Origin: Anaerolineales bacterium
GTDB lineage: Bacteria > Chloroflexota > Anaerolineae > Aggregatilineales > UBA2796
Direction of reading: 5' to 3'
Assembly (NCBI GenBank): GCA_015075625.1
Contig: JABTTZ010000001.1
Span: forward strand, 1,612,001-1,676,000
DNA length: 64,000 nucleotides
In this document: positions 37,708 through 43,144 of the stretch, piece by piece
Layout of the letters: every line of letters begins with the position of its first letter
Numbering within the stretch: the stretch's first letter is position 1
The notes under the pieces: generated by a model
Databases searched by the model: none
Told to the model about the DNA's origin: nothing
Seen by the model: only the letters and a program-made list of their open reading frames with translations
Position numbers and translations under genes: made by a program

Positions 37708-38982
37708 CTAGTCGCGCTTGAACTTTGTGTAGTCGGGGGCGCGGTAACGGCTGCGCCCGCCGCCATCAATGTTGATCAGGGCGTCGATCTTGTTCGGCAA
37801 GCCAAAGAGGTGGATGAACCCTTCGGCATCCTTCTGATCGTAAATGTCCATCCGCCCGAACGAGGCGTAATCCTCACGGTACAGGCTGTTGGGGCTGCGC
37901 CGTCCGGTGACGATCACGTTTCCCTTATAGAGATCAAGGCGCACGTCGCCCGTCATGGGCTGCTGCGTCACATCGACAAAGGCATCCAGCGCATCGCGCA
38001 GGGTGCTGTACCACTGCCCGTTGTAAACGAGTTCGGCATATTTGATCGCCATCTGCAGCTTCATGTGGAGCGTCGCTTTGTCGAGGCAAATGCTCTCCAA
38101 CGCCTGATGCGCCTTAAAGAGGATCGTCCCACCGGGCGTTTCGTAGACCCCGCGTGATTTCATCCCGACAAGACGGTTTTCGACCATATCGACCCGTCCA
38201 ATACCGTGTTTCGCGCCGAGATCGTTCAGGGCGAGGAACAGATCAAGCGCCTCCATCGGAGCGCCATCGAGCGCCACCGGATAGCCCTCTTTAAAACTGA
38301 TCTCCACCGCTTCGGTTAAGTCGGGAGCCTCTTGCGGGCTTTTGGAAAGGGTGAACATCGATTCTTCCGGTTTGTTCCAGGGATTCTCCAGCGGTCCCCC
38401 TTCGTGGCTCATATGGAACATGTTCCGATCCCGACTGTAGATCGATTTCAGCGTTGCCGAAACAGGAATCCCCCGTTCTTCGGCATACTCTACGGCGTCC
38501 TCCCGACTCCGAATGAACCAGCGGTCATCGCGCCAGGGGGCGATGATCCCCAACTTCGGGTTAAGCGCCATGACAGTGACTTCAAAGCGCACCTGATCAT
38601 TGCCCTTGCCTGTACAGCCATGCGCAACGGCATCGCCGCCTTCTTCTTCGGCAATCTCCACCAAGTGGCGGGCGATCAGCGGACGGGCAAAGGACGTGCC
38701 AAGCAGATAATCGCGCTCGTAAATTGCCCCTGCTCGCATCGTCGGAAAAACGAACTCGGTCAGGAATTCCTTGCGCAGATCGCGGATGATCAATTTGCTG
38801 GCGCCGCTTTTCTTTGCCTTTTCTTCCAGCCCGTCTAGTTCGTCGCCCTGTCCCAGATCGGCGGTGAAACAGACGACCTCGCAGTTGAACGTCTCCCGCA
38901 GCCAGGGGACGATCACCGAAGTGTCCAGCCCGCCGCTGTAAGAAAGAACAACTTTCTTGTACTGTTGTGGTTGTTTCGACAT
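37708..38982 (-). CDS. argG: Argininosuccinate synthase
   Basis: About 424 residues. ATP-dependent joining of citrulline and aspartate, the penultimate step to arginine. The ATP-binding loop VVLSYSGGLDTSV lies near the N-terminus; GCTGKGNDQVRFE and the C-terminal region match ArgG. The start at 38982 (MSKQ) is chosen from family alignment sense, although no strong Shine-Dalgarno precedes it. It is the last gene of the arg cluster, 7 bases after an unknown gene. Confidence 0.96.
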   Translation of the reverse strand: MSKQPQQYKKVVLSYSGGLDTSVIVPWLRETFNCEVVCFTADLGQGDELDGLEEKAKKSGASKLIIRDLRKEFLTEFVFPTMRAGAIYERDYLLGTSFARPLIARHLVEIAEEEGGDAVAHGCTGKGNDQVRFEVTVMALNPKLGIIAPWRDDRWFIRSREDAVEYAEERGIPVSATLKSIYSRDRNMFHMSHEGGPLENPWNKPEESMFTLSKSPQEAPDLTEAVEISFKEGYPVALDGAPMEALDLFLALNDLGAKHGIGRVDMVENRLVGMKSRGVYETPGGTILFKAHQALESICLDKATLHMKLQMAIKYAELVYNGQWYSTLRDALDAFVDVTQQPMTGDVRLDLYKGNVIVTGRRSPNSLYREDYASFGRMDIYDQKDAEGFIHLFGLPNKIDALINIDGGGRSRYRAPDYTKFKRD

Positions 38983-38989
38983 AGTAGGT

Positions 38990-39487
38990 TTAGGTAATCC
39001 CCTCTGTGGGTGGTTGTATGGGTGGTTCGCTTGACGCATCCATCGATGATTTTACCGGTGTGTCTATCTCTGGCGGCAAATCGACAGAGACTGCCTTTGC
39101 TTGAAGGGCATCCTCCGCCGCCAAGAGTGCGCTGAGCTTTGCCCGCGCCTCCGCCTCTGTTTTGGTGATGATCAGTTGGTTCGGCAGCAGCCGCGCCATT
39201 GCCTGCAACAGGATATCGACAATGATCGATGCGCCAAACACAATGGCGATCCCATTGTTCGGATGTTTCCAACCGGGTAAGGCACGCATGCGCAAAATAC
39301 CCTGTGGAATATGGCGCATTTTGCTCATATCAATCAGTGAATGGCACTTTTTCGATGTTTGGGACAAGGTGTTTAAATGCTTGAACACCATCTCGGCATT
39401 CGTGTACAGGTTGTCCATATGCCAGGGATCGGTGAAAACGATGTAGGCAACACGTCCATCTTCGATAAGTTCAAGATTCGCGGGCAT
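38990..39487 (-). CDS. Unknown protein inside the arginine cluster
   Basis: About 165 residues, start at the ATG at 39487 with AAGGAA upstream. The N-terminal about 130 residues form a small alpha/beta domain (IEDGRVAYIVFTDPWHM, then CHSLIDMSKMRHIPQG) that recalls STAS/SpoIIAA-like folds. The tail is Pro/Ser-rich. No catalytic motif is seen. It lies between argD and argG on the same strand, 7 bases from argG, so it is probably co-transcribed. Confidence 0.65.
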   Translation of the reverse strand: MPANLELIEDGRVAYIVFTDPWHMDNLYTNAEMVFKHLNTLSQTSKKCHSLIDMSKMRHIPQGILRMRALPGWKHPNNGIAIVFGASIIVDILLQAMARLLPNQLIITKTEAEARAKLSALLAAEDALQAKAVSVDLPPEIDTPVKSSMDASSEPPIQPPTEGIT

Positions 39488-39595
39488 GAGGCTGTTCCTT
39501 TTGCTCAGTGTCGATACCAATGTCGTGCCACTACCTCTCTTAGGAAGTGTAGCATGATGCCCAAAAGGTGATGGTATGTCTGCCTCTTATAGCGC

Positions 39596-40804
39596 TTACA
39601 GGGCTGCCAAGATGTCCGAAAGGCGTTCGACAAACGTATCGCAATCGGCTTTTTCAGCGATCAGCGGCGGGATCACTCGCAGGACGTTCTGCCCCGATCC
39701 CACCAAGAGCAGCCCCTTTTCTTGCCCCTTTTTGACAAGATCGGCAACGGCAATATCGAACTCCACGCCCAGCATGAAGCCCCGTCCGCGCACCTCGGTG
39801 ATGTGTGGGCTGGTGATCTCCTCCAAGCGTTCTTTCAGGTAAGTTCCCGTCTCCCGAACATGGGTCAGGAAGGATTCTGCGTTGATCCGGTCAAAAACGT
39901 AGTTTGCTACCGCCGTGATCAATGGACCGCCGGCAAAGGTACTGCCGTGATCGCCGGGCTTGAGCGCCGCTCCCACCCGTTCGGTGACGAGGATTGCGCC
40001 GATGGGCAGCCCGCCCGCCAGCGGCTTTGCCAGCGTCATCATATCGGGCATGACGCCCCCCGCCGTGTGCGCCCAGAGGTCGCCTGTGCGCCCCAAGCCG
40101 CACTGCACCTCATCAAAAATGAGGAGCGCCCCCACTGAATCGCACCGCGCCCGCACCGCCCGCAAAAAGTCCGCCGAAAAGGGGTGAATCCCGCCTTCGC
40201 CTTGCACGGGTTCAAGGAACACGGCGCAGGTGTCCTCGGTGATCGCCGTCTCTAGGGCGCTGATCTCGTTGAAGGGGGCGACAGTGACGCCGGGCAGAAG
40301 GGGCTTGAAGGGGTCTTGATAGGCGGCTTTCGGGGTCAGGGAAAGCGATCCCATCGTCCGCCCGTGAAAGGCATGATCAAAACAGACCAGTCCGGCTTTG
40401 TGATGGTGACCGTTGGCGCGGGCGAACTTACGGGCAAACTTGATCGCCCCCTCGTTTGCCTCTGTCCCAGAGTTTGTGAAAAAGACGCGATCAGCAAAGC
40501 TGTGCGCCGTCAGCTTTTCGGCAAGCTGCACAGCGGGAATCGTGTGGTAGAGGTTGCTGGTGTGGATCAACTTTTGCGCTTGCGCCGCCAACACCTCGGC
40601 AATGCCCGGATCGGCATGACCGAGGGCGTTCACGGCGATCCCCGCCATAAAATCAAGGTATTCGTTGCCGGCAGTATCCCACACACGCATCCCCGCCCCA
40701 TGCGAAAGGACGAACGGCGGACGGGCATAAACTTGGACGATGTGATCGCTCTCCACCCCCATGATGTGGGCGGCGGTCTGGTCGGGCGAAACAAGACTAG
40801 TCAT
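39596..40804 (-). CDS. argD: Acetylornithine aminotransferase
   Basis: About 402 residues, class III PLP-dependent transaminase. It converts N-acetylglutamate semialdehyde to N-acetylornithine. Landmarks are FTNSGTEANEGAIKFAR, IFDEVQCGLGRTG and LAKPLAGGLPIGA, which includes the PLP Lys. Start at 40804 with GGAAG upstream. It lies between argB and the unknown gene; a hairpin module in the 240-base gap after argB may cause partial termination or RNA processing. Confidence 0.93.
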   Translation of the reverse strand: MTSLVSPDQTAAHIMGVESDHIVQVYARPPFVLSHGAGMRVWDTAGNEYLDFMAGIAVNALGHADPGIAEVLAAQAQKLIHTSNLYHTIPAVQLAEKLTAHSFADRVFFTNSGTEANEGAIKFARKFARANGHHHKAGLVCFDHAFHGRTMGSLSLTPKAAYQDPFKPLLPGVTVAPFNEISALETAITEDTCAVFLEPVQGEGGIHPFSADFLRAVRARCDSVGALLIFDEVQCGLGRTGDLWAHTAGGVMPDMMTLAKPLAGGLPIGAILVTERVGAALKPGDHGSTFAGGPLITAVANYVFDRINAESFLTHVRETGTYLKERLEEITSPHITEVRGRGFMLGVEFDIAVADLVKKGQEKGLLLVGSGQNVLRVIPPLIAEKADCDTFVERLSDILAAL

Positions 40805-40869
40805 GCGTTTCTTCCTTTTCTCTGCTGTCCTATACACATCCCCAACGCTTGGGCGGTGGGGCTAGAGTT

Positions 40870-41043: not shown

Positions 41044-41793
41044 TTACAAGTCATGGCTAATCGTTGTCCCCGTCCCCGCCGCCAAGCCCGCAAGGTCGGT
41101 GATTACAGCAGCGCGGACTCCGGCGCTCAGGGCGTCTAGGGCGGCGTTCACCTTCACCGCCATCCCCCCTGTGATCACCCCCGCGTTGATCTGAGTTTGG
41201 ATCGCCGTGCGGTTTAGGGTGGGAATCACTGCCCCCTCTTTCAACACACCGCGGACGTTCGTCAGAAAAACGACGCGCTCTGCATTCAGCGCCGCGCCCA
41301 CCGCCCCCGCCGCCCGATCTGCGTTGATGTTGAAGAATGTGCCATCTATCCCTAGCATGATTGGGGCGATCACCGGCACAATGCCCGCCGCCAACAACCC
41401 GCGCAGAACCTCCGCACGCACAGTGGTGATCACCCCCACCGCGCCGAGATCGCCATCAGGGTGGCTCAGTTTTTCCCCCCGCAGCAGCCCTTGATCTGCC
41501 CCATTGAAGCCCTGCGCCTGAACGCCCTGTGTTTGCAGCGCGGCGACAAGCATCGGGTTGATCGCCCCGATCAGGCTCATCATGACAATGGTCAGGGTTT
41601 CGGGGTCGGTCACGCGAAGCCCGCCCACATAGCGGGGGACAATTCCTAAGCGCTCTTGAAGCGCCTTGATGCTCTGCCCACCGCCATGAACAATCACCGC
41701 CGGGGCAGGGAGCGCCTTCACCGCCGCCGCCATCCCCGCGATGAAGGCGGGGTCATCCAATTGATTTCCCCCAATTTTCAAGACGAGTGTCAT
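41044..41793 (-). CDS. argB: Acetylglutamate kinase
   Basis: A 249-residue amino acid kinase. It phosphorylates N-acetylglutamate, usually the feedback-controlled step. Motifs are LVLKIGGNQL at the start, IVHGGGQSIKALQERLG for substrate binding, and GGMAVKVNAALDAL near the C-terminus. It is shorter than arginine-inhibited ArgB forms, whose N-terminal helix is absent here, so feedback inhibition may be weak. It overlaps argC by 4 bases (ATGA). Confidence 0.95.
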   Translation of the reverse strand: MTLVLKIGGNQLDDPAFIAGMAAAVKALPAPAVIVHGGGQSIKALQERLGIVPRYVGGLRVTDPETLTIVMMSLIGAINPMLVAALQTQGVQAQGFNGADQGLLRGEKLSHPDGDLGAVGVITTVRAEVLRGLLAAGIVPVIAPIMLGIDGTFFNINADRAAGAVGAALNAERVVFLTNVRGVLKEGAVIPTLNRTAIQTQINAGVITGGMAVKVNAALDALSAGVRAAVITDLAGLAAGTGTTISHDL

Positions 41794-42833
41794 AGCAGTC
41801 CCGTCTCCGTTGGCAGACCGCTCATCAGGTTGAAGTTCTGCACCGCCTGACTTGCCGCCCCTTTCCGCAGGTTATCAATGGCGCTGGTGACGATCAGGGT
41901 ATCCCCTTCCAATGCGGCGACGCCGATCACGGCTTTGTTCGTGTGGGTCGCCGCCTTCATGGGGGCGGGCGTCCCCTCTGGTAGAAGGTCGATCAGCGGT
42001 TCGCCCTCGTATTCGCTGCGGAACGCAGCCATGATGCGCGGCAGCGACCAGCCCCCCTTCAGCCGAACATAGACTGTCGCCAGCAGCCCAACATCAACAG
42101 GCACAACATGGGGGGTAAAGAGGATCGATCCAGCATCCGCTTGCCATTTGTGAAGTTCTTGCTCCATCTCCGGCACATGGCGGTGATTGCGTCCGGGTTT
42201 GTAGGGGCGAACATCGCCATACACTTCCACAAACAGCGAATCGAGCTTGAGCGCCTTCCCCGCCCCCGAAATGCCCGTCTTGGTATCGGCAATGATCGGG
42301 TCGCCCGTCAGCGCCCGCGCCCGCGCTAAGGGGTAAAGCGCCAACAGCACCGCCGTCACATGGCAGCCCGGGTTGGCGACGATCTGCGCCGTCTTAATCG
42401 CTCCCCCGTAGACCTCGCTGAGTCCGTACACGGCGGGGAGCAGATGGGGCGCGGGGTGATCATGCCCGTACCATGTCTTATACAGGTCGGGCGTGTCCAG
42501 CCGCAGATCGGCGCTGAGGTCGATGACGCGAACGCCGCGCGCCGCCGCCTTCGCCGCGATCTCGCCAGAGACGCCGTGCGGCAGACAGAGGAAAATCGTC
42601 CCCACCTGATCCAGCGGCGCTTCGGCAATGGGGAGCAGATTCAGCCCACCCACCGTCTCGCGAGAACTTTCGGAGGTGGCAAAGGCAACCCGCGCCGCTG
42701 GATGTTTGGCAAGCAAGCTGAGCAGGGTTTGTCCGGTGTAGCCTGTCGCCCCGTACACGCCAACGTTGTGGATGGTCATTGTCTGGCGGATGGTTGGTAA
42801 GGCTGGTGAGGCATTGGGTGATTGTGCGGTCAT
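41790..42833 (-). CDS. argC: N-acetyl-gamma-glutamyl-phosphate reductase
   Basis: 347 residues. NADPH-dependent reduction of acetylglutamyl phosphate. It shows the nucleotide loop GVYGATGYTGQTLLSLL, the active-site region NPGCHVTAVLLALYPL (catalytic Cys) and the GISGAGK loop. The ATG at 42833 has GAAGGA upstream, which supports keeping the 18-residue N-terminal extension. It is the first structural gene of the arg cluster and lies just downstream of the leader peptide and attenuator. Confidence 0.96.
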   Translation of the reverse strand: MTAQSPNASPALPTIRQTMTIHNVGVYGATGYTGQTLLSLLAKHPAARVAFATSESSRETVGGLNLLPIAEAPLDQVGTIFLCLPHGVSGEIAAKAAARGVRVIDLSADLRLDTPDLYKTWYGHDHPAPHLLPAVYGLSEVYGGAIKTAQIVANPGCHVTAVLLALYPLARARALTGDPIIADTKTGISGAGKALKLDSLFVEVYGDVRPYKPGRNHRHVPEMEQELHKWQADAGSILFTPHVVPVDVGLLATVYVRLKGGWSLPRIMAAFRSEYEGEPLIDLLPEGTPAPMKAATHTNKAVIGVAALEGDTLIVTSAIDNLRKGAASQAVQNFNLMSGLPTETGLL

Positions 42834-42878: not shown

Positions 42879-42912
42879 AAAAAACCCTCCAGACCGTTTG
42901 TGGTCTGGAGGG
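42879..42912 (-). terminator. Attenuator terminator upstream of argC
   Basis: On the minus strand CCCTCCAGACC (42902-42912) pairs perfectly with GGTCTGGAGGG (42885-42895), loop ACAAAC, followed by six T residues (42884-42879). It lies about 46 bases before the argC start codon, between the promoter and the operon. Confidence 0.93.
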
Positions 42913-42927
42913 TTTTGAACTCACCCC

Positions 42928-42981
42928 GGCGCCGTCCGTCTTAGTCCATGCAGCGGCGCCATCCAGACCTTATGCTGGTGG
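42928..42981 (-). promoter_or_regulatory. Attenuator alternative pairing segments
   Basis: Segment 1, CCACCAG (42975-42981), can pair with segment 2, CTGG-A-TGG. Segment 2, GGTCTGGATGG (42959-42969), can also pair with the terminator 5' arm (10 of 11 positions), forming an antiterminator. An extra hairpin, GGCGCCG (42954-42960) with CGGCGCC (42928-42934), spans the leader stop codon. These are the parts of a 1:2 / 2:3 / 3:4 switch. Confidence 0.85.
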
Positions 42982-43018
42982 TACGGCGGCTGCGGCGGCG
43001 CGGGGACAGAACGAGCAT
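42941..43018 (-). CDS. Arginine-rich leader peptide of the arg operon
   Basis: A 25-codon open reading frame, too short for standard gene calls. The peptide has Arg at positions 7, 8, 9, 11, 12, 17, 21 and 22, including the runs PRRRSRR and WRRC; 8 of 25 residues are Arg. Its stop codon lies 29 bases before the terminator 5' arm. A ribosome stalled at Arg codons 7-12 would cover segment 1 and free segment 2 for antitermination. A ribosome that reaches the stop would cover segment 2 and allow termination. The Shine-Dalgarno is weak (GGAA about 12 bases upstream). Confidence 0.85.
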   Translation of the reverse strand: MLVLSPRRRSRRTTSIRSGWRRCMD

Positions 43019-43055
43019 GGTGAGCAATTTCCGAGTGTGACGAATTGATAAGTAC

Positions 43056-43061
43056 AGTATA
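43056..43061 (-). promoter_or_regulatory. Candidate -10 box for the arg operon
   Basis: TATACT on the minus strand, 5 of 6 consensus. No strong -35 at 16-18 bases. Transcription would begin near 43049, about 30 bases before the leader peptide start. Confidence 0.4.
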
Positions 43062-43144
43062 GCGAATGACCCTAGTGTAAATCATTTGGTGAGCTTGCAC
43101 AAGAGCGCAAACGGCGTAGGATTAGGGTGTATTTGTAATTCCTG

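Follow-up and report, generated by a model that had tools for sequence, protein, structure and literature searches.

Ahead of the arginine biosynthesis operon of an Anaerolineae bacterium lies what is very probably a transcription attenuator of the trp/his type, ribosome-mediated and specific in this instance for arginine (a reading to which I give a probability of about 0.93, judging from comparative sequence analysis). A sequence-only reading of the window, by which I mean the whole stretch of 64,000 nucleotides that was analysed, had proposed just such a switch, and the proposal is supported by the conservation of the leader, by covariation in all three of its helices, and by the presence of the same leader before other arginine genes. 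The host genome (4.68 Mb, 98% complete) belongs to the phylum Chloroflexota, class Anaerolineae.

The leader and the genes behind it

All that the sequence-only reading had described just upstream of argC is there (Table 1): a frame of 25 codons with eight for arginine, a segment 1 that pairs with segment 2, a segment 2 that can pair with the 5' arm of the terminator at 10 of 11 positions, and a perfect 11-bp terminator with six Ts, followed by argC. Segment 2 sits within the leader frame. The terminator, whose stem reaches 15 bp if flanking A-T pairs are counted, is intrinsic, with a U-run, and is placed between the leader frame and argC. The genes that follow, identified by NCBIfam matches, form an operon for making the very amino acid that the codon run of the leader encodes. 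Their order had been given as argCB-D-G, and the names stand, but an ORF of 176 amino acids (38990-39520, minus strand), with no NCBIfam or Pfam match, intervenes between argD and argG.

Table 1. Features of the arginine locus, in window coordinates
Feature	Position	Strand	Remarks
Possible sigma-70-type promoter of the leader transcript, ATGATT-18-TATACT	43056..43085	-	8/12 match; weak here, clearer in relatives
Leader peptide ORF, MLVLSPRRRSRRTTSIRSGWRRCMD	42941..43018	-	25 aa, 8 Arg codons; ATG 43018-43016, TAA 42943-42941; frame kept in relatives
Segment 1, CCACCAG	42975..42981	-	pairs with segment 2; 1:2 helix covaries across 41 leaders
Segment 2, GGTCTGGATGG, antiterminator 5' arm	42959..42969	-	complementary to terminator 5' arm; covaries
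Segment 3, CCCTCCAGACC, terminator 5' arm and antiterminator 3' arm	42902..42912	-	pairing, covariation
Segment 4, GGTCTGGAGGG (42895-42885), and T6 (42884-42879), terminator 3' arm and U-run	42879..42895	-	intrinsic terminator
argC, N-acetyl-gamma-glutamyl-phosphate reductase	41790..42833	-	first regulated gene; first ATG at 42833; TIGR01850, E 1.8e-94, over cut-off
argB, acetylglutamate kinase	41044..41793	-	overlaps argC; TIGR00761 over cut-off
argD, acetylornithine transaminase	39596..40837	-	TIGR00707 over cut-off
argG, argininosuccinate synthase	37708..39039	-	TIGR00032 over cut-off; start may be an internal ATG

In the window genome both the Shine-Dalgarno sequence of the leader and its promoter are weak, and a stricter scan of the window locus did not recover the promoter candidate. 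Relatives are clearer in this respect: promoter matches of at least 10/12 lie upstream of 35 of 67 leaders, as against 0/67 in shuffled sequence.

When the upstream region was shuffled so as to preserve dinucleotides, none of 5,000 sequences contained an arginine-rich short ORF together with a terminator scoring at least 18, and none of 5,000 contained ORF, terminator and antiterminator jointly. The leader RNA folds with a z-score of -5.16, and 0/200 shuffles were equally stable. A proline-rich frame (59 aa, GTG start) overlaps the leader; it was rejected because relatives conserve the arginine frame, exchanging CGC and CGT, while their other frames are interrupted. A scan of the whole window for codon runs found no second convincing attenuator.

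Relatives keep the design and change the sequence

The argC gene was searched for in 61 relatives, 298 genomes of the class, 251 of the phylum and one named collection, and the upstream DNA of 210 argC loci was examined by an automatic scan that requires three parts in the proper geometry: a short ORF rich in arginine codons, a terminator, and a segment able to pair with the terminator's 5' arm. At a strict threshold, positives lay ahead of argC in 30/30 loci from the same order, 66/80 named contigs of Anaerolineae type, and 16/40 further loci of the class, where the order and named counts are not independent because some named loci come from the same genomes as order loci. The background of the scan was 11/4,200 shuffles and 1/210 reverse strands. 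Arginine frame and terminator, one or other of which the sequence-only reading needed to find in relatives, are both retained throughout the order and in a large part of the class. Some class loci below the threshold have the same design with fewer arginine codons or a shorter ORF (L138, L145, L147, L148), and in some members of the class the leader has merely one to three arginine codons. Six of 60 loci from elsewhere in the phylum were positive, and four of these look real by eye, two from one family (L170, L205) and two from another (L189, L190); the remaining two (L191, L200) look like GC-rich false positives. An Anaerolineae-type argC with the same leader also occurs in an assembly filed under the cyanobacterium Pleurocapsa minor (L085; JAHHHY010000001.1), which is probably mislabelled or mixed.

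The segments vary widely in sequence (GGTCTGG, GAGGTTCG, GGGTCCGG, AGAAGTTCGG, GTGTGTGCCGGG, and others), while their pairing persists. In permutation tests, which like the column shuffles below control for shared ancestry only in part, the segment 2 of each of 67 non-redundant leaders scored 13.60 against its own terminator arm versus 10.64 against the arms of other species (z 13.4; 0/20,000 permutations), and a test of the same type on 61 leaders gave 0/10,000 for the terminator and 4/10,000 for the 1:2 helix. Aligning argC leaders from related genomes had been suggested as a check, and the alignment, made with MAFFT from 41 leaders and blind to structure, brings out covariation in all three helices. 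Pairs changed on both sides make up 8 of 12 in the 2:3 helix, 3 of 4 in the 1:2 helix and 5 of 8 in the terminator. Each helix beats column shuffles in the number of cells paired (0/500), and each beats all slides of one to three columns both in cells paired and in covariation score. The mutually exclusive 1:2, 2:3 and 3:4 helices are present and all covary, the 1:2 helix being the shortest and not universal.

The peptide is as distinctive as the RNA. In the final 26 residues of the leader peptides arginine makes up 23.2%, versus 4.3% in ArgC, and the codons that specify it are differently chosen: CGT 186, CGC 146, AGG 29, CGG 15, CGA 14 and AGA 6 in the leaders, CGC 314, CGG 141, CGT 75, CGA 33, AGG 17 and AGA 7 in argC. 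CGT and CGC together supply 84% of the arginine codons in leaders, where CGT stands at 47% versus 13% in argC and CGG at 4% versus 24%. Since the third base moves freely between C and T (CGC/CGT), selection evidently acts on the arginine frame. That CGT is enriched and CGG scarce hints that the sensor is one isoacceptor of arginine tRNA; RNA structure could contribute to the bias. The leaders amount to natural data on which arginine codons act as sensors.

If codons are what the leader reads, then they should follow the gene downstream, and they do. A covariance model trained on argC leaders alone has one strong match in the window genome, the argC leader itself (E 8.5e-13). In relatives, the next-best credible matches are arginine-rich leaders with terminators before stand-alone argG genes in seven genomes (L250, L251, L253, L255, L256, L257, L258; two of these argG genes were checked by NCBIfam and the others assigned by close sequence similarity to those two), and in one genome an arginine-rich leader with a terminator stands before a separately placed argD (L265). 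A specificity control for the model is provided by a locus (L266; G125:C1:1304050-1306100, at about 80-330) where the same design, including a segment 2 that fits the terminator arm, precedes alaS. Its frame from the ATG, MLNVPFKHVNFAAAAQTASLVGIVA, has a run of alanine codons (GCC x4) in place of arginine, making it a candidate alanine-specific attenuator. With arginine before argC, argG and argD and alanine before alaS, the codons correspond to the gene that follows, which is what attenuation by a leader peptide demands.

One further match (L254; G016:C27:18000-20000) combines an arginine-rich leader, MFYKTLISRRSRRNTRIAQVRRG, with a terminator and an antiterminator before the gene of an M28-family peptidase, which is probably secreted and is possibly a target for arginine scavenging. 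Six others (L252, L259, L260, L261, L262, L263) were coding-like or leaderless and were discarded as chance. One may go on to imagine the Anaerolineae scaffold as a single modular sensor in which nothing but the codons of a CGCC-type repeat, or its reading frame, determines the amino acid sensed (arginine for CGC/CGT before argC, argG and argD, alanine for GCC before alaS). Such a scaffold would be re-coded by small changes of frame and would underlie an ArgR-free arginine regulon. I consider this larger idea rather unlikely.

How the switch would work

I propose that a ribosome translates the arginine-rich peptide, as it presumably can, while RNA polymerase transcribes the leader. When charged arginine tRNA is scarce, the ribosome would stall on the run of CGC and CGT codons and cover segment 1, so that segment 2 would be free to pair with the 5' arm of the terminator as that arm emerges. 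The terminator would then be blocked, and argCBD, probably argG too, would be transcribed. When arginine is plentiful, the ribosome would read on through segment 2 as far as the stop codon, or segment 2 would refold with segment 1; the terminator would form, and transcription would end about 45 nucleotides before argC. The direction of this response is a prediction of the model, as is its size.

The spacing of the parts is compatible with such a stall: over 67 leaders, the median gap from the end of the last preceding arginine codon to segment 2 is 11 nucleotides, and the predicted stall position covers segment 1 and exposes segment 2. Modelled with a stalled ribosome in place and segment 4 not yet transcribed, 64/67 leaders are predicted to form the 2:3 helix with high probability. 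With no ribosome the median probability of that helix is 0.12, since segment 2 is then held in upstream pairing (the value for the window genome, as naked RNA, is 0.28), and when the full-length leader is folded the terminator is preferred in 66/67. The least certain step is termination when arginine is replete. In the window genome and most relatives, a ribosome at the stop codon leaves segment 2 mostly upstream of it; with segment 2 not fully covered, termination would depend on timing and on refolding of the 1:2 helix, and in some relatives the 1:2 hairpin is poor.

Other explanations and other systems

It may be objected that DNA rich in CGC, GCC and CCG readily encodes runs of arginine, alanine or proline, that the locus has a proline-rich alternative frame besides, and that we are looking at an ordinary intrinsic terminator, which ends an upstream transcript or attenuates constitutively, with an arginine-rich frame beside it by chance. 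An accidental frame would hardly be conserved throughout the class with synonymous exchange of CGC and CGT, nor recur before argG and argD, nor contain a segment that covaries with the terminator arm, and shuffled sequence yields the design in only 11/4,200 cases; the objection strikes me as very improbable indeed. Quite improbable, too, is a mechanism in which the arginine-rich nascent peptide senses free arginine or a related metabolite and itself halts the ribosome, in the manner of SpeFL or of the arginine attenuator peptide of fungi, with slow decoding of arginine codons playing no part. Arrest peptides are frequently basic, and within the family of the window genome the peptide has a near-fixed core, PRRxSRRTTSH.SGW. 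Outside that family, however, the arginine run alone is kept while flanking residues and spacing vary freely, and the same scaffold before alaS carries an alanine run, which fits codon matching but not a peptide that binds arginine.

There is also the view that the operon answers to a T-box, some other ligand-binding RNA or an ArgR-type operator, with the leader frame incidental. ArgR is, after all, the classical repressor of arginine biosynthesis, and the window genome does use T-boxes. Against this, a search of Rfam gave no match anywhere in the window, there is no T-box at the argC locus, and the DNA-binding domain of ArgR was not found in the window genome by a search whose controls were positive. 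I take the odds of this view to be close to negligible, and the locus presumably lacks other arginine regulators. In view of the same Rfam result I dropped a plus-strand string that resembles a T-box (GGTGGTACGGCGG, near 42980). Elsewhere in the window genome there are four T-box matches, for example near an anthranilate synthase gene and leuS (G000, L032, L034), so this genome would combine T-box control for some amino acids with a leader peptide for arginine.

To return to the attenuator, the sequence-only reading had thought codon-based attenuation unusual in a setting classically governed by ArgR. The attenuation is supported, but ArgR itself is not detected in the window genome, so the case is one of attenuation where the classical repressor is missing, not of ArgR plus attenuation. 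Nor did a search with the DNA-binding domain find any credible ArgR in 297 genomes of the class; four matches over the cut-off, from one family (f8), are weak, cover part of the HTH model only and lie in frames of 112 amino acids, and they were not counted. In the 251 genomes of the phylum, 55 pass the ArgR cut-off, all in families outside the class. Among the loci there whose upstream DNA was examined, the ArgR-bearing ones (such as G400, G407, G432, G443, G446, G453, G485, G488, G492 and G537) are without the leader, and those with the leader (G413, G477, G505, G526) are absent from the ArgR list. Judged by that domain, ArgR and leader look mutually exclusive in the sampled genomes, and the attenuator may stand in for ArgR; some Chloroflexota lineages have neither. 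With the leader in much of a class without credible ArgR, and ArgR without the leader in other families, the phylum offers a clear example of a regulatory logic exchanged for another, and the leader is likely the general mode of arginine control in this little-studied group, most of whose members are uncultured.

There are RNA switches for arginine in other bacteria. The arginine T-box riboswitches of Firmicutes bind uncharged tRNA directly and have no translated leader; like the present leader they respond to the charging of arginine tRNA and can use a choice between terminator and antiterminator, but they do so without a ribosome reading codons, and none is found at the argC locus. The attenuators of trp, his, leu, thr and ilv in Proteobacteria and of trp and ilvB in Actinobacteria have the same anatomy as the one described here: a leader ORF with cognate codons, segments 1 to 4, the 1:2, 2:3 and 3:4 helices, a terminator with a U-run, and a biosynthetic operon. 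They belong to other amino acids and other phyla, whereas here arginine is the amino acid and Chloroflexota the phylum, and the stop codon is often placed far beyond segment 2. In Actinobacteria no RNA element was seen ahead of arginine genes, and T-boxes were cited as the RNA control of arginine elsewhere (PMC1262725).

Consecutive arginine codons in a leader do sense arginine by ribosome pausing in the speF leader orf34, or SpeFL, of Salmonella and E. coli, but that leader governs polyamine synthesis by way of Rho, translation and RNase G, lacks an intrinsic terminator switch, and has two consecutive arginine codons, not a longer run (PMC6386406). The present locus, with arginine biosynthesis genes downstream and a strong intrinsic terminator, is not of the SpeFL/orf34 type. 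Leader peptides outside Proteobacteria and Actinobacteria were presented as new in 2010, with the histidine leader peptides of bacilli (hisS/hisZ paralogs), which share attenuation by leader peptide with the case at hand and differ in amino acid, gene and phylum (PMC2965389). Searches of the open-licence literature turned up no attenuator built on arginine codons for any bacterial operon of arginine biosynthesis, though an earlier report is possible, and none built on arginine codons in Chloroflexota. Set beside these systems, the leader before argC appears to be a classical ribosome-mediated attenuator whose specificity is new, one that much of its class retains and that apparently replaces ArgR.
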